From positions 1 through 21,265 of the IMG/VR virus record IMGVR_UViG_3300017917_001832: a DNA stretch of 21,265 nucleotides. One strand, given 5' to 3'. Source of the DNA: a virus. The notes below the pieces were generated by a model. That model was not told the DNA's origin. It did no database searches and was given only the letters and a program-made list of their open reading frames with translations. Numbering within the stretch: the stretch's first letter is position 1; every line of letters begins with the position of its first letter. The position numbers and the translations under genes were made by a program. Positions 2 through 14,072 of the stretch are shown here, piece after piece.

Positions 2-286
2 ACTGCATTATTAGGTGGTGACGCTAATGGTGGAGATGAAGGTGGCGGCGGTGGTGGCGGTGGTGGATACTTTGGTGGTGGTGCAGGATCTGGTAATCAA
101 GGCGGTGGAGGTGGTGGTGGATCTGGTTATTTAAATACAACATTTATTTCTAATGGAGTTTTAACAACTGGATCTAGTTCAACACCAGGAAATAGTTCTG
201 ATACATTAAGATCTGGTTCTGGAAATGGTGGAGGATCTGGTGGTAGTGGAACAGATGCAAGAGTTATTATTAGAATAGCTCAATAA
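2..286 (+). CDS. Gly-rich C-terminal end of a phage tail/adhesin protein (5' truncated)
   Basis: Only the last 94 codons lie in the window; the reading frame runs from base 2 to TAA at 284-286. The visible part is dominated by glycine: runs of seven or eight Gly at about residues 14-21 and 37-43, broken by Y, F, S and N, followed by a Ser/Thr/Gly segment and a short hydrophobic end (RVIIRIAQ). Gly-rich tracts closing with a V-I-I strand are typical of the C-terminal Gly-rich domains of phage tail fibres and adhesins, which pack as polyglycine-II-like receptor tips. The gene sits directly upstream of a fibre gene, which agrees with a virion surface role. The N-terminal part and the true length are unknown. 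Confidence 0.7.
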   Translation, partial: TALLGGDANGGDEGGGGGGGGGYFGGGAGSGNQGGGGGGGSGYLNTTFISNGVLTTGSSSTPGNSSDTLRSGSGNGGGSGGSGTDARVIIRIAQ

Positions 287-320: not shown

Positions 321-2228
321 ATGTCTACAATTTTTCCATTATCTGCCTCTGTTGGTCAAATATTTGACGGATATGAGTTTGATGGATCAAGATGGAATAT
401 AATTGGAATTGATTTAACTGCTGATTACCCTGAAATTATTGATGGAAAGATATCTGCCAGTGTAATACCATCTCAATATGTAACAGGCTCTAGCCCACAT
501 ACCCTAACAAATAAAACAATTGGAAGTTCTGGTCTATTATTCAATAGTGGAGCTCAAAATCATTCAATATATGCAGGTGGAAATGATTTTTCAATATTTG
601 GATATCATGATTTATATTTAAATACAGATAATGGCGATATTATATTACAACCAGATGGTTTTGCATATATATATTCAGAAAGAATAGCGACAAGACCATG
701 GGTTGAGGAAAATTATCAACCAGTTGGATCATATCTAACAACCTCATCAGCAAGTGCAAACTATGCAACAATAAGCTATGTTGATACAGAAATTGCAAAT
801 ATCGATGCACTTCCATCACAGACTGGAAATTCTGGAAAGTTTTTAACTACATCAGGATCAGCTGCTTCCTGGGCAACAATTGATTTAAGTAATTATTTAA
901 CATCATCTATAAATGAACAGATAATTATTACAGATACAACAAATTCAACTTCAGATACAACTGGGGCACTAGTAGTTTCTGGAGGAGTTGGGGTAGGAAA
1001 AGACTTATGGATACATGGAAATCTACATGTAGATGGAGTAACTTATACATTACAAACTCAAACAGTTGCAACAGAAGATAATATTATTTATTTAAATTCA
1101 GCACACGATGCAACAATTACAAATGCTGTTTATAATAGTGGATCAATTGTATATACAGCAGAAAATGACTATCATGTTGGAATGGATATAAGAGTAACTG
1201 GTATAAATCCATCAGGATTTAATATATCAACTGGAGATAATTTAACTATAGTAGCAGCAAATGCAACTAGCTTTACTGTTATAAAATCAGACCCAGGATC
1301 TCCATATGTTTCTGGAGGAACCTCACATGCAAAGTCTGAAGCAAACGCAGATCTTGGATTTGCTGGTGGATATTATTCAGGTGGATATGCTCACGCAGGT
1401 TTATTTAGAGATGCATCAGATGGAATATTTAAGTTTTTTGATGGATATATTCCAGAACCAGATGAGGCAGTTAATATTGATATTACCCATCCATCATTTT
1501 CTCTAGCACCAATATCAGCAGATAGTATTATATTATCAAATCCAGTTTCAACTCAATATGGTGGAACTGGTCTTACATCAATTGGTACTGCAAATCAAAT
1601 TTTAAGAGTAAATTCAGGTGCAACAGGATTAGAATGGGCTACACTAGATGCACTTCCATCACAAACTGGAAATACTGGAAAATTTCTTACTACAAATGGA
1701 TCTACAGCATCATGGGCTAATGTAGATGCACTTCCATCACAAACTGGAAATTCTGGAAAGTATCTTACAACAAATGGATCTAGTGCTTCATGGGCTACAC
1801 TAGATCTATCTCTATATGCTACTTTAAATAGTCCTACACTAGTAACACCAAATATTGGAGTAGCTAGTGGAACATCTTTAACAACAACTGGAAATGTTGT
1901 ATATCATGTACAAATATTAACTCCATCTATAGTCTCAAATTCTTATACATTAAATGGTTCAGAAGATGGATGCATTATAATGATTGATAATTCTACAACA
2001 GATGCAAACCTATATGTTCCAACAGATGCTACATATAATTTCCCTATTGGAACACAAATAACTATTATTCAAAAAGGTAATAGTATTACAACAATATCTG
2101 CATCATCACCTGGAATAACAACTATAAACTATACACCAGGAAATAAAACAAGAGCAAGATATTCAGCAGCAACTTTAGTAAAAACTGCTGCAAATCAATG
2201 GATGCTAATGGGAGACTTGACTTTATAA
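321..2228 (+). CDS. Tail fibre / structural protein with 26-aa repeats (635 aa)
   Basis: A virion tail-fibre-type protein. Three copies of a 26-residue module (DALPSQTGNxGKxLTTxGS..SWA) begin at residues 162, 443 and 469. Residues about 205-400 hold the block seen in T4-like cyanophage fibres: TTGALVVSGGVGVG, then a 'DNIIYLNS' segment and a 'HAGLFRDASDGIFKFFDG' segment. Residues about 540-635 match a recurring phage tail C-terminal domain (SEDGCIIMIDNST, GTQITIIQKG, a final NQWMLMGDL). The start is the first ATG in frame. There is no Shine-Dalgarno sequence; a -10 box ends nine bases upstream, so translation may be nearly leaderless. The stop overlaps the next start (TAATG). The family assignment is by recognisable motifs; the exact position in the virion is inferred. 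Confidence 0.85.
   Translation: MSTIFPLSASVGQIFDGYEFDGSRWNIIGIDLTADYPEIIDGKISASVIPSQYVTGSSPHTLTNKTIGSSGLLFNSGAQNHSIYAGGNDFSIFGYHDLYLNTDNGDIILQPDGFAYIYSERIATRPWVEENYQPVGSYLTTSSASANYATISYVDTEIANIDALPSQTGNSGKFLTTSGSAASWATIDLSNYLTSSINEQIIITDTTNSTSDTTGALVVSGGVGVGKDLWIHGNLHVDGVTYTLQTQTVATEDNIIYLNSAHDATITNAVYNSGSIVYTAENDYHVGMDIRVTGINPSGFNISTGDNLTIVAANATSFTVIKSDPGSPYVSGGTSHAKSEANADLGFAGGYYSGGYAHAGLFRDASDGIFKFFDGYIPEPDEAVNIDITHPSFSLAPISADSIILSNPVSTQYGGTGLTSIGTANQILRVNSGATGLEWATLDALPSQTGNTGKFLTTNGSTASWANVDALPSQTGNSGKYLTTNGSSASWATLDLSLYATLNSPTLVTPNIGVASGTSLTTTGNVVYHVQILTPSIVSNSYTLNGSEDGCIIMIDNSTTDANLYVPTDATYNFPIGTQITIIQKGNSITTISASSPGITTINYTPGNKTRARYSAATLVKTAANQWMLMGDLTL
804..881 (+). repeat. First copy of the 78-bp fibre repeat
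   Basis: Encodes residues 162-187 of the 635-aa fibre (DALPSQTGNSGKFLTTSGSA...). It is separated from the two tandem copies at 1647-1802 by more than 700 bases of unrelated fibre sequence. Confidence 0.85.
1647..1802 (+). repeat. Two tandem copies of the 78-bp fibre repeat
   Basis: Copies at 1647-1724 and 1725-1802 each encode 26 residues and start with GATGCACTTCCATCACA. They are nearly identical at the DNA level in their first half and diverge in the second half. The period is a multiple of three, so copy-number change would keep the frame. Confidence 0.85.
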
Positions 2229-3274
2229 TGAGAGGAATATTTAATTCTGTAACATCTTCTGTTAGAAAAGTTTCAGAAGACACGTTTCAAAGAGCAGACG
2301 AATCTGGTCAAATAATAGCAACAGATGGCTCAAGATGGCAAAAACTTCGTGGATTATGGGGAATTTCTACAAATAAACTAGTTTCTTCATCAAGTCCAAC
2401 ATCATTAGCAGACTCTCCAATTATAGTGGAAGACTTTCCAACAAAAGATGTAAATATTTTACAAAAAGGTACTGGTCCAGGAACAACTACTGCTCTTTGG
2501 GTAACAGATGAAAATAATTGGTGGGCAGTTGGAATAGATTCACAAAGCACTAACTGTAATTGTACTGACTATAGTTGTTGTGTTGCCTATGGATGTACTG
2601 GATATGGCTGTACAGGATATGGATGTACTGCTTATGGATGTACAGCAACAGGATGTACAGCAACAGGATGTACTGCATATGGTTGTACTTCTGGATATGG
2701 ATTATGTACTTCTGGATATGGTCTTTGTACAGGATATGGATGTACTGCTTATGGATGTACAAAATATACATCTGGTAAATGCTCTGGTTATGGCTGTACT
2801 AGATTTGGATGCACTGGATTTGGATGTACTTCTTTTGGATGCACAACTTTTGGATGTACTAAATATGGATGTACGGCAACAGGATGTACTGCAGAAGGAT
2901 GTACCGCATCTGGATGTACGTCAAGTGGATGTACTTCTTCTGGATGTACTCAATCATCAACATGTACTACATGTCAAACATGCTATCCTAAATATATAAA
3001 GGTTTTTAAATCAGTTGCCAGTGCTATATCAACCTTAGTTTCTTGGACTCCAGGAAGTGATTTAATTAAATCATTTAGAGTAAAAACTAAAGGAAATTTG
3101 ATTCAAGTACAGGCATATAGTGATGATTATGGTCAAACTGTTTATGGTAGTGAAAATGTATATGATGCAACATCAGAAAATCCACAAAGAACTAATAGAT
3201 TTGGAATAATGATAACTCCAGCAACAATGGATCAGGCTAATTATTCTAGTGGAATTAGAATTGAAATAAATTAA
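2228..3274 (+). CDS. Virion protein: beta-sandwich-like domain interrupted by a Cys pentapeptide array (348 aa)
   Basis: I chose ATG 2228, which overlaps the upstream stop as TAATG; an in-frame ATG at 2198 would lie 31 bases inside the fibre gene. Residues about 15-105 resemble the N-terminal half of phage lectin/LamG-like beta-sandwich domains (DTFQRAD, DGSRWQKLRGLWGIS, then NNWWAVGID). Residues 110-252 hold all 30 cysteines: CNC and CC, then repeats of the form xxGCT, with breaks at two SGYGLCT units and one KYTSGKCS unit, then CTTCQTC. Residues 253-348 resume with YPKYIKVFKSVAS and a strand-rich segment ending in GIRIEIN, as if one domain were split by a large loop. No signal peptide or membrane segment. 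Its position behind a fibre gene suggests a tail-tip or receptor-binding protein. The fold of the Cys region and its metal or disulfide state are unknown. Confidence 0.75.
   Translation: MRGIFNSVTSSVRKVSEDTFQRADESGQIIATDGSRWQKLRGLWGISTNKLVSSSSPTSLADSPIIVEDFPTKDVNILQKGTGPGTTTALWVTDENNWWAVGIDSQSTNCNCTDYSCCVAYGCTGYGCTGYGCTAYGCTATGCTATGCTAYGCTSGYGLCTSGYGLCTGYGCTAYGCTKYTSGKCSGYGCTRFGCTGFGCTSFGCTTFGCTKYGCTATGCTAEGCTASGCTSSGCTSSGCTQSSTCTTCQTCYPKYIKVFKSVASAISTLVSWTPGSDLIKSFRVKTKGNLIQVQAYSDDYGQTVYGSENVYDATSENPQRTNRFGIMITPATMDQANYSSGIRIEIN
2585..2950 (+). repeat. 15-bp tandem repeat array encoding xxGCT pentapeptides
   Basis: The unit is roughly NNN-TAT/TTT/ACA-GGA-TGT-ACT. It gives twenty xxGCT pentapeptides plus two seven-residue SGYGLCT units and one irregular KYTSGKCS unit. 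Wobble positions vary (GGA/GGT/GGC, TGT/TGC, ACT/ACA/ACG/ACC), so the protein pattern is better conserved than the DNA. A 36-base stretch is repeated exactly at 2609-2644 and 2726-2761. Confidence 0.95.
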
Positions 3275-3565: not shown

Positions 3566-4264
3566 ATGCAACTAATTAGATTTTCTTCAAATAAAATTTA
3601 TGGTGGAGTTGGACAACCAATTCCAGCAAAAAAATATTTACCAGAATGGTTTAAAAATGCAGAAAGTTTTTATATTAATTCTAATAGACCAGAAATTGGT
3701 CCACAGCCTGGATTAAAAGAATGTAAACCTTATATGGATATGATGATTGCTGGATACTATTTAGTATTTCCATGCGATGTTACTATAACTTCAAAAGATG
3801 ATGGATCAATTTCTATTGAATGGGATGAAGAAAAAGTACATCCAGACTTTATTGCAGAAAGACCAAAAGAAATGGGTGCAACAATGCCAAGACCACATGG
3901 ATTTGCATCAAACCATCTAGTATTTTCTGGCATGTGGGGATGGAAGACACCGAGAGGATGGTCAACAATTGTTACCCATCCAATTAATCAAGTAGACTTG
4001 CCATTTCATACAGTTTCTGCTTTTATGGATAGTGATATGTTTAATGGTGCAGGTAATATTCCATTTTTTATTCGTCAAGGATGGAGTGGTGTTATTAAAA
4101 AGGGAACTCCATTTGCACAAATAATTCCAGTAAAAAGAGCAAAGTGGAAAATGATAAATAATGATCAGGGGTTGCTTGAAAAGGTTGAATTTGATGCAAC
4201 AGTTGTAAGAAATCCAGAAAGATCATATAAAAAAACAATGTGGTTTAGAAAGGATTATAGCTAA
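3566..4264 (+). CDS. Conserved phage protein resembling DUF6065 (232 aa, function unknown)
   Basis: The protein opens with MQLIRFSSNKIYGGVGQPIP and AKKYLPEWFKNAE. Further landmarks are PMP-like MPRPHGFASNHLVF, GWKTPRGWSTIVTHPINQ, DLPFHTVSAFMDSD, NIPFFIRQGWSGVIKKGTP and FAQIIPVKR. This order matches a family I know from cyanophage and other aquatic phage genomes, to my recollection called DUF6065; the label is from memory and unverified. The 'PxGTPFAQIIP' region is reminiscent of cupin-like or dUTPase-like beta folds, but that is speculation. Only a weak ribosome binding site is visible. The last residues (MWFRKDYS) resemble the first residues of the next protein (MWFKKDDE), and the two genes overlap as TAATG at 4262-4266. 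Confidence 0.75.
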   Translation: MQLIRFSSNKIYGGVGQPIPAKKYLPEWFKNAESFYINSNRPEIGPQPGLKECKPYMDMMIAGYYLVFPCDVTITSKDDGSISIEWDEEKVHPDFIAERPKEMGATMPRPHGFASNHLVFSGMWGWKTPRGWSTIVTHPINQVDLPFHTVSAFMDSDMFNGAGNIPFFIRQGWSGVIKKGTPFAQIIPVKRAKWKMINNDQGLLEKVEFDATVVRNPERSYKKTMWFRKDYS

Positions 4265-11066: not shown

Positions 11067-14000
11067 ATGGCAAGAAAAGTTATAGTGGAGACTGACTACA
11101 CTTTTAATCCAGCTACAAGGACTATTGTTCTTAATGAATATATTCCAAGAGAAAGACTTATCTTAATCACAAATGTTACAACTAATCAAGTTTTATATAA
11201 TTTTTCTGATACCAGCCTAGCATTACAGTCTCTTACAACAGCTATAACTCCACAAGGCACTGGTCAAACAACCATAGTTCTTGGATATAACACAGTTGGA
11301 ATGAATTCAACTGATAAAATTCAGGTAGTTTTTGATGAAGCTGATCAAAAATTTACTCCATCTGAAACACAGTTAGATCCTACAAATAAATTTAGAGTTA
11401 CAACTCCACAATCTTTAATTGATACAGACTTTGAATATGGTCTACAGAATAGCAAGTGGGAAAGTCTTGCAATGATTAACAATAGACCATTTGCTTATCC
11501 AACTGCTACACCAGTTCCAAATATAACTGGTATTGCAATGAGCACAGGTTCAAGAACTGTTACAATTACCACATCTATTGCACATGGTATTACAGTTGGA
11601 ACACCTGTGTATGTACAAGATACATATTTATCATTTGCAAATGGAAACTTTGTTGTTGAAACGGTTCCAACATCTACAACATTTACATATACCGCAAGAG
11701 CAGCAAATAATACATCGATCACAGCAATTTGGGATCAATTTAAGACAAATGTTTTTGTTGGTGCACTATATACTGGTGCAGCAATTGGTGGAACTCCAAC
11801 ATTTACATATTCAGGTCAACAAGTAACTGCAGTAACAACAGTCCCACATGGATTATCTATTGGAAATGAAATTGCTATAACTGGTACAACTGCACTAACT
11901 AATGCACCAAATGGAACATTTATAGTTACAACAGTTGATAGCCCAACACAATTTAAGTTTTATGTTCCAGCAGCACCAACTGGCACCATAGCATCTGGAA
12001 CTATTTACAATCTTCCACAAGGAAGCTTTTTACATAGAGCTTTTGATGGTGGTGTTATATTTTCAAATAATGCTAACTCAAACTTTGAACAGTCAATTAG
12101 ACAAACTCGTAGATACTTTAGATATCAATCTGGAAAAGGTATTCAAGCATCAACTGGAACTATTTTAAAGCCAAATCTACAGCTTGACTCTATCACGGCA
12201 AATGGAACAATTGCAACTGTTCAAACAAAAGAAAAGCATAATATTCAGCCAGGTGCATCAATTACAATTGCTGGTGCAGATGAGGCAACATATAATGGAA
12301 CATTTACAGTAACATCTGTTACTGGATATAATACATTCCAATATACAATGAACAGTGTTCCAGTATCAACAACTGGAACTGGTCCTTATTATTGCTCTGT
12401 TAATAACTGGTATGGATCAGTTAATAGAATGGGTATTTTTGATCAGCAAAATGGTATGTTCTGGCAATATGATGGACAGGTATTAAGTATTGTTAGAAGA
12501 AATTCAACATTCCAACTTTCTGGAAGAGTATCTGTAACAAATGGTTCAAGTACTGTTACACAAACAAGCTCTTCATTTCCAACACTATTTGCCCAACAAG
12601 CAAAGCCTGGTGACTTTATTGTAATTCGTGGTCAATCATATAGAATTCAAGACATTGCAAGTAATACATCTATGACAATTACACCAGCCTATAGAGGTGC
12701 AACAACCACTATGGCAAATGTATCTAAAACAGTTGATACAGTAATAACACAGTCTCAATTTAATATAGATAAAATAGATGGAACTGGTCCATCAGGATAC
12801 AATATTGATCTTGCAAAGATGCAAATGTTCTATATTGACTATTCATGGTATGGTGCAGGATTTATTAGATGGGGTGTTAGAGGAACTGACGGTAACGTAA
12901 TTTATGTTCATAAGATGCCAAATAATAACGTTAACCAAGAAGCATTCATGCGTTCAGGTAACTTACCAGCTAGATATGAAGTATCAACATTACCTCCATA
13001 CACATTCCTATCAGCTACTGTTGGAGCATCAGATACTGTAATGTCTGTTGGATCAACAGCAAACTTCCCATCATCTGGTACACTTTGTATTAGAAGTGGT
13101 TCAACATATGAATATGTTAACTATACTGGAAAAACAGCTACAAGCTTTACTGGTCTAATTAGAGCAAGAGCAGGTTTAACTACCGTACAATCACTAACAA
13201 TAGCAAATGGATCTAATCAAGGAACAATTGCTAGTGCTGCAAATCTTCAGGTTGGTATGAGAGTAGTAAGTGCATCTATACCAGAAGGAACATTTATTAC
13301 AAATATAAGTGGAAATACATTAACATTAAGTCAAGCAGTAACCGCTGCAAATCCTACTGATGTTTTATTCCCACCAATGGGTGCTACAACTGGTCAAACA
13401 TTTACATATAGCGATACTGCACCAGTTGCTGTAGAATTTGCCTATCCAACATTTGGATCTACACTATCTCACTGGGGTACATCTGTAATTATGGATGGTA
13501 GATTTGATGATGATAAGTCTCTAGTTTTCACATATGGACAAACATCATTTGCCAATATTGCATCAGGTGCATCTAAAGCATTATTCTCAATTCGTGTTGC
13601 TCCATCTGCAGATAATGGTGTTGCATCAGGATTTGGTCAAAGAGAAAATATTAATCGTATGCAATTAGTTTTAAGAGCACTTGATATTACAACAAGAACC
13701 TCTGGTGCTAATATGCTAGTTCGTGCATTCCTAAACGCAACACCTTCAGTTTCAACAACTTGGACAAATGCTGTTGCAAATGCTACAAATATAGCTAATT
13801 CATCATTGGCACAAATTGCAGACCATGGAACTGGTGTGGCTACTGTTACTGGTGGTGAAATCACTGGTGGTTTCTTCGTAAGCAGCACTGGTGCAATTGA
13901 TTTATCAACAGTTCGTGATCTTGGTAATGCCATTCTTGGTGGTGGAACAACTACTGCTAATACTGGAATTTATCCAGATGGTCCAGATACTTTAACAATT

Positions 14001-14072
14001 GTTGTTACAAATCTTGGAGCATCAGCAATTGACGTTCTTGGAAGGATATCCTGGACAGAAGCACAGGCTTAG
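11067..14072 (+). CDS. Large T4-like cyanophage-type structural protein, baseplate or fibre (1001 aa)
   Basis: The longest gene of the window; GGAGAG at 11051-11056 supports ATG 11067. Three beta modules of the type HGxxxGxxVxIxG...NGTFxVTxV...TxFxY lie at about residues 171-210, 260-300 and 388-430. Between and after them comes a long conserved region: RQTRRYFRYQSGKGIQAS (345-362), NWYGSVNRMGIFDQQNGMFW (447-466), GDFIVIRGQSYRIQDI (515-530), DGTGPSGYNID (571-581), YIDYSWYGAGFIRWGVRG (589-606) and SGNLPARYEVS (630-640). I recognise this order from very large structural proteins of T4-like cyanophages. The C-terminal third (DDKSLVFTYGQTS, ending VLGRISWTEAQA) also belongs to that type. A virion role at the baseplate periphery or proximal fibre is inferred. 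Confidence 0.85.
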   Translation: MARKVIVETDYTFNPATRTIVLNEYIPRERLILITNVTTNQVLYNFSDTSLALQSLTTAITPQGTGQTTIVLGYNTVGMNSTDKIQVVFDEADQKFTPSETQLDPTNKFRVTTPQSLIDTDFEYGLQNSKWESLAMINNRPFAYPTATPVPNITGIAMSTGSRTVTITTSIAHGITVGTPVYVQDTYLSFANGNFVVETVPTSTTFTYTARAANNTSITAIWDQFKTNVFVGALYTGAAIGGTPTFTYSGQQVTAVTTVPHGLSIGNEIAITGTTALTNAPNGTFIVTTVDSPTQFKFYVPAAPTGTIASGTIYNLPQGSFLHRAFDGGVIFSNNANSNFEQSIRQTRRYFRYQSGKGIQASTGTILKPNLQLDSITANGTIATVQTKEKHNIQPGASITIAGADEATYNGTFTVTSVTGYNTFQYTMNSVPVSTTGTGPYYCSVNNWYGSVNRMGIFDQQNGMFWQYDGQVLSIVRRNSTFQLSGRVSVTNGSSTVTQTSSSFPTLFAQQAKPGDFIVIRGQSYRIQDIASNTSMTITPAYRGATTTMANVSKTVDTVITQSQFNIDKIDGTGPSGYNIDLAKMQMFYIDYSWYGAGFIRWGVRGTDGNVIYVHKMPNNNVNQEAFMRSGNLPARYEVSTLPPYTFLSATVGASDTVMSVGSTANFPSSGTLCIRSGSTYEYVNYTGKTATSFTGLIRARAGLTTVQSLTIANGSNQGTIASAANLQVGMRVVSASIPEGTFITNISGNTLTLSQAVTAANPTDVLFPPMGATTGQTFTYSDTAPVAVEFAYPTFGSTLSHWGTSVIMDGRFDDDKSLVFTYGQTSFANIASGASKALFSIRVAPSADNGVASGFGQRENINRMQLVLRALDITTRTSGANMLVRAFLNATPSVSTTWTNAVANATNIANSSLAQIADHGTGVATVTGGEITGGFFVSSTGAIDLSTVRDLGNAILGGGTTTANTGIYPDGPDTLTIVVTNLGASAIDVLGRISWTEAQA

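Follow-up and report, generated by a model that had tools for sequence, protein, structure and literature searches.

What could be built from a protein segment in which, over long runs, every fifth residue is a cysteine, and what would a phage use it for? The question is raised by a gene at 2228..3274 (+ strand) in a viral DNA stretch of 21,265 nucleotides (hereafter the window). As delimited from the ORF list, the sequence and the relatives described below, it encodes a 348-residue jelly-roll protein with a Cys-rich insert. An earlier note on this DNA had counted 30 cysteines within 143 residues and none in the remaining ORF, and had described runs of seven and then eleven GCT units at exact five-residue spacing; translation of 2555-2983 (residues 110-252) confirmed the count and contains both runs. 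The longest run of cysteines exactly five residues apart comprises 12, against a maximum of 9 when these residues were shuffled 20,000 times.

The gene, its neighbourhood and its cysteine array

The reading frame of the array is open throughout. Its 20 Gly-Cys-Thr units are written with nine different codon strings, so that the DNA repeat has silently decayed while the pattern was held at the protein level. In 15 pairs of close relatives, the insert cysteines are conserved at 174 of 178 places and the other insert positions differ at 359 of 1685. Silent codon decay and Cys conservation together indicate that the insert is translated and that its cysteines are under selection.

The ATG of the gene overlaps the stop codon of the gene upstream (TAATG, 2226-2230), and translation of the gene is therefore probably coupled to that of its neighbour; the same one-base overlap was found in the relatives L228, L245, L269 and L275. 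The upstream gene (321..2228, + strand) encodes a tail-fibre-like protein of 635 residues whose C-terminus matches PHROG 8780, annotated as 'minor tail protein' (E 2e-11). Its last ~95 residues (about 1941-2225, + strand) form a fibre C-terminal module that is met again just before the genes of relatives, although direct blastp recognised such a C-terminus there in only 28 of the 65 loci. Further along the window, the product of gene 11067-14072 shows, in its best matches, full-length identity of 44-48% to virion structural proteins of T4-like cyanophages. The tail-fibre neighbourhood, together with a core fold common to phage receptor-binding domains, agrees with the previous proposal of a virion protein.

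Several other features of the region were observed. Window positions 2-286 encode the C-terminal end (GGGGGGGYFGGGAGSG...) of a poly-glycine protein such as is seen at phage fibre tips, and the relative L140 terminates in a similar stretch. Within the upstream fibre gene, a 78-bp tandem repeat at 1634-1805 (2.2 copies) encodes SQTGNTGKFLTTNGSTASWA-like units. The gene at 3566-4264 belongs to PHROG 7084 (with a weak DUF6065 match) and often occurs beside the adhesin gene of relatives in at least two diverged copies (L246, L247, L258, L269 and L275). One of these, L275, carries two different members of the jelly-roll family on a single phage contig (1149-2288 and 7183-8286), about 5 kb apart.

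The core and its insertion site

No family matched the window protein in Pfam (E 0.1), PHROGs or NCBIfam profiles; the Pfam pentapeptide models in particular gave no match at E 0.1, PDB sequence matches were at chance level, and the earlier impression that the repeat belongs to no known family thus stands. Single-protein searches of IMG/VR and INPHARED returned no match, and a scan of IMG/VR for seven cysteines at five-residue spacing was discarded because it was swamped by other-frame readings resembling ordinary pentapeptide-repeat genes. Relatives were found by a DNA pattern for the block GLWGISTN...WVTDENNWWA, which flanks the insert in the core and is recognisable in the window protein, and then by two profile searches, which recovered 93 and 104 IMG/VR stretches encoding them. 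About 75 distinct viral-metagenome relatives bear differing Cys-rich inserts at one shared loop. When GTDB was searched with the family alignment, none of its 84,980 bacterial and archaeal genomes yielded a relative, no isolate carrying the gene was found, and the literature library searched held no description of such phage proteins.

The core is predicted with confidence to be a two-sheet jelly roll of the ConA/CBM66 type. Given the 43 aligned relatives, AlphaFold2 produced a jelly roll in which 175 residues exceed pLDDT 90 and strands flank the insert on both sides. The first part of the core (residues 15-104, 2270..2539, + strand) ends in WVTDENNWWAVGID, is modelled at pLDDT about 86-98 and holds the residues invariant across the 43 relatives (F20, G85, W91, V92, D94, N97 and W98). 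The second part (residues 255-348, 2990..3271, + strand) is modelled at about 89-98, and the structural alignments span residues 6-348. The nearest solved fold is the central fibre gp20 of Mycobacteriophage Douge (Z 17.2, 2.8 A over 169), followed by CBM66 (Z 16.7, 2.5 A over 149 residues) and the C-terminal receptor-binding domain of TM4 gp23 (Z 16.4). The two fibre proteins share the predicted core fold and the probable tail location of the window protein at a sequence identity of about 11%, and CBM66 of Bacillus subtilis and the ConA-like lectins share the jelly-roll fold at 14% identity. Matches in BFVD were uncharacterised proteins of uncultured Caudovirales with 15-26% identity. The window protein carries the WVTDxNNWWA block within a ConA-like, nearly Cys-free core.

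The insert itself (residues 105-254, 2540..2989, + strand), placed by the alignment and by the insert lengths, lies in a beta-hairpin of this core, a setting that the earlier note had missed: modelled strands 97-105 and 108-116 enter it and 245-252 and 255-263 leave it. The insertion point is identical in the relatives, between NWWA and a strand of the KVFKSVASAIS type. Insert length varies across the family from about 0 to nearly 500 residues; L140 and L318, with 2 and 10 residues at this point, have next to no insert. The cores contain 5 cysteines in 8911 residues, whereas Cys makes up 11% of the inserts, in which Thr, Gly, Ser, Tyr and Asn are also abundant. The Cys period in this loop also differs among relatives, with values of 5, 8, 10, 11, 12-13 and 16-17. 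For most of the insert of the window protein AlphaFold2 gave no structure (pLDDT 35-44, about 37), so that any rod formed by it is not directly predicted, and a run on the array alone was uninformative.

Cysteine number and spacing

We examined 75 complete inserts: 72 unique ones, which group into 53 clusters at 80% identity or 37 at 50%, and the three longest, L269, L267 and L247, with 46, 36 and 34 cysteines. The number of cysteines, which ranges from 4 to 46, is even in all 75, and related inserts of unequal Cys count differ in such a way that every count is still even. Among control genes from the same loci, those with at least 4 cysteines have 168 even and 125 odd counts, and those with at least 10 are even in 53 of 103 cases. 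Set against the roughly 50-57% expected from these controls, the unbroken evenness of the inserts indicates, at the level of sequence, that their cysteines are paired. It favours disulfides over free cysteines, and lends support to the 'ladder of disulfides' that had been suggested for the window protein.

The spacings of the cysteines are moreover mirrored about the centre of the insert. In L267 the gaps of the left arm are 17,17,17,14,18,18,9,12,9,12,21,13,11,10,13,13,9 and those of the right arm, in reverse order, are 16,16,16,14,19,19,10,11,10,11,21,13,11,9,14,13,9, a near-perfect mirror over 36 cysteines. Across 45 representatives the mirrored gaps correlate with r 0.37, as compared with -0.07 in shuffles (z 6.7), and halves taken in the same order show no correlation (z 0.8). 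The left half of an insert is fitted better by its own right half than by those of other members (z -9.7 for 28 representatives with at least 14 cysteines), also when the two outermost gaps are dropped (z -7.9); unrelated Cys-containing control proteins show no such effect (z -1.0). Losses follow the same rule in two of the comparisons made. Between L344 (12 cysteines) and L352/L166 (10) the unmatched ranks are 5 and 8, which sum to n+1, and L270 and L279 differ, of 24 cysteines, at ranks 10 with 15 and 11 with 14, that is, at mirror partners; in L389 versus L393 the differing ranks, 10 and 12 of 20, are not partners. Even counts, mirrored spacings and joint loss of partners fit a long hairpin with nested disulfide rungs, and not a pentapeptide solenoid or a metal site. 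A plain flat beta ribbon whose rungs all lie on the same face does not accommodate rungs spaced 5 or 11 residues apart. Some short inserts (4-12 cysteines, with C-x10-C modules, for example L271 and L371) are not simply nested and may contain local pairs. In L305, L307, L309 and L315 a duplicated module of the CACGNGxxDxMxCCC type replaces the evenly spaced ladder, which suggests that this loop accommodates a second type of insert.

In the window protein the five-residue spacing is interrupted at the exact centre of the array by its longest gap, eight residues (C177-TKYTSGK-C185), with 15 cysteines on each side. We delimit from the list of Cys spacings an outgoing arm (C110-C177, 2555..2758, + strand), from the 15-gap-15 layout a proposed hairpin turn TKYTSGK (2759..2779, + strand), and from the arm layout and the mirror symmetry of relatives a returning arm (C185-C252, 2780..2983, + strand), whose cysteines would be partners of those of the outgoing arm, outermost with outermost. 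Taken alone, the array of the window gives p 0.11 in the mirror test because its gaps are nearly uniform, and we infer nesting there from the central gap and from the relatives. Outside the window, searches of viral contigs for GCTxx and YGCxx patterns and of bacterial genomes for YGCxx found arrays with GYGCT units only in the viral contigs L243 and L244. The former has 10 cysteines, CSQYSRGNC and 10 cysteines (mirror test p 0.016), and the latter has 9, CVFYNRYPPYAC and 9, with breaks of spacing that agree in both arms (p 0.001). The three arrays are of unequal lengths, yet the exact centre of each is a turn-like segment that contains an aromatic residue and a basic one.

Two further Cys-rich phage proteins were encountered. 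The product of L133 (ORF at 1, - strand, 695 residues), a phage tail-type protein unrelated to the jelly-roll family, has another kind of Cys array (GCETGCETSCEMGC...) with about four-residue spacing and 81 cysteines in the portion examined. A protein of 860 residues on the phage contig L096 has 141 cysteines; the count is odd and the spacings are not mirrored (p 0.55), so that this is a different kind of Cys-rich protein.

The earlier note had likened the five-residue period to one face of the quadrilateral beta-helix of pentapeptide repeat proteins. The classic members of that class (A(D/N)LxX) share the period with the window array, but their core is Leu/Phe, whereas the conserved residue of each window unit is Cys. 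A period of five is in addition only one of many in the same loop, and spacings mirrored about a centre argue for a two-stranded nested hairpin rather than stacked coils, so the pentapeptide or solenoid fold was dropped as the leading idea. A variant of it deserves separate consideration. Midge antifreeze protein consists of 10-residue Cys/Gly/Tyr repeats and has been modelled as coils of that length, each closed by one disulfide. PMC9418140 mentions its beta-solenoid with a stacked Tyr row. The insert could likewise form ten-residue coils, each closed by a disulfide between cysteines five apart, with rows of Tyr and Thr; the exact spacing and the presence of Gly, Tyr and Thr recall the midge repeats, and local pairs would also yield even Cys numbers. 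We regard this as unlikely, since local pairing leaves unexplained the mirrored spacings, the joint loss of distant partners and the exactly central turn in arrays of 30, 20 and 18 cysteines, and since relatives have periods of 8, 10, 11, 13 and 17 in the same loop; the mirror symmetry points to a hairpin where the midge protein is a solenoid. A more remote reading takes the antiparallel strands to belong to two or three neighbouring copies, stapled into a multimer by disulfides between subunits. Trimers are frequent at fibre tips and an antiparallel dimer would also produce mirrored spacings; this arrangement, however, would not demand the even counts seen in all 75 inserts and gives the central turn no special role. 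The least probable reading is the metal-lined solenoid of the earlier note, or any array of zinc or iron sites with Cys thiolate ligands along the insert. The very high Cys content and the CxC/CxxC ends are in its favour, but counts of 6, 10, 14, 18, 22 and 30 are even without being multiples of four, a metal site needs no evenness, other ligands are scarce in the inserts (His about 0.5%, Asp and Glu about 1.2% each) and there is no match to a metallothionein-type or other family. On parity and scarcity of ligands this reading was rejected.

A proposed fibre-tip loop and its parallels

Putting fold, neighbourhood and Cys pattern together, we consider it probable that the window protein is a receptor-binding adhesin of the fibre tip, a jelly roll with an ultralong hypervariable loop whose 30 cysteines form 15 nested disulfides. 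The conserved core would present this single loop at the tip of the tail fibre. The outermost two cysteines would bond with each other, then the next two inward, and so on up to the turn, making the loop a stiff two-stranded hairpin rod with disulfides as rungs and the turn CTKYTSGKC at its distal end. The disulfides presumably form outside the reducing cell, probably on or after release. By altering length, period and sequence of the rod with all cysteines staying paired, related phages would turn a varied surface toward the host. Receptor binding is suggested by the genomic context and the core fold, and the rod shape of the insert by the pattern of its cysteines.

The divergence of insert and core bears on this function. 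L321 and L325 have cores 99% identical and inserts 48% identical. Some close pairs have a pN/pS of about 1 in the insert, as against about 0.15 in the core, with the cysteines retained. Together with the core fold, this points to a fibre-tip adhesin using an ultralong loop as its variable binding surface. The loop could instead be a structural spacer that lengthens or stiffens the fibre tip, its variation being neutral, an idea that competes with the function proposed here and leaves the disulfide ladder untouched. The low-complexity Gly/Ser/Thr/Tyr/Asn composition and the spread of insert lengths already described are what such a spacer might show. We hold it to be rather unlikely, given that variation is concentrated in the insert with cysteines and core conserved, and that the core is similar in fold to receptor-binding domains.

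Antiparallel strands joined by several disulfide rungs are known from the cystine ladder of theta-defensins and the stacked hairpins of granulins, which are small secreted animal peptides with three to six rungs; the proposed phage ladder resembles them in this respect and differs in being a loop of a jelly roll. The nearest working parallel appears to be the ultralong CDR-H3 of bovine antibodies, with its stalk and knob (PMC5994613), for which the germline segment IGHD8-2 contains GYGCGYGYGCSGYDC and reads ...YGYGCGYGYGCSGYDCYGYGG (PMC7366855). As proposed here, the phage protein has in common with it a beta-sandwich from which a single ultralong hairpin loop extends, hypervariable and rich in Gly, Tyr, Ser and Cys; the Cys numbers are biased to even in both, and the disulfides of the cow loops are diverse. 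The cow loops, however, have few disulfides and are built as a stalk with a small knob, whereas the phage inserts would have 2-23 pairs, nested in the long ones, and diversity arises by somatic mutation in the cow and by phage evolution in the jelly-roll family. Since the Ig fold is unrelated to that of the phage protein, as is the host, the likeness would be one of convergence and not of membership.

Whether this amounts to a new architectural class, in which a hairpin reaching about 500 residues is held by as many as 23 nested disulfides and serves a large group of uncultivated phages as a freely evolvable binding loop convergent with the ultralong antibodies of cows, seems to us evenly balanced. 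The rules of even number and mirrored spacing provide a simple sequence test that could locate such loops elsewhere. If the architecture is as proposed, these proteins would be natural scaffolds with dozens of ordered disulfides, and they would raise the question of how so many disulfides arise in a virion built in a reducing cytoplasm. Phages would have independently reached the solution of cattle antibodies, a constant beta-sandwich with a hypervariable, disulfide-laddered loop, and a disulfide-rich binding loop would join the known routes by which phage adhesins diversify.
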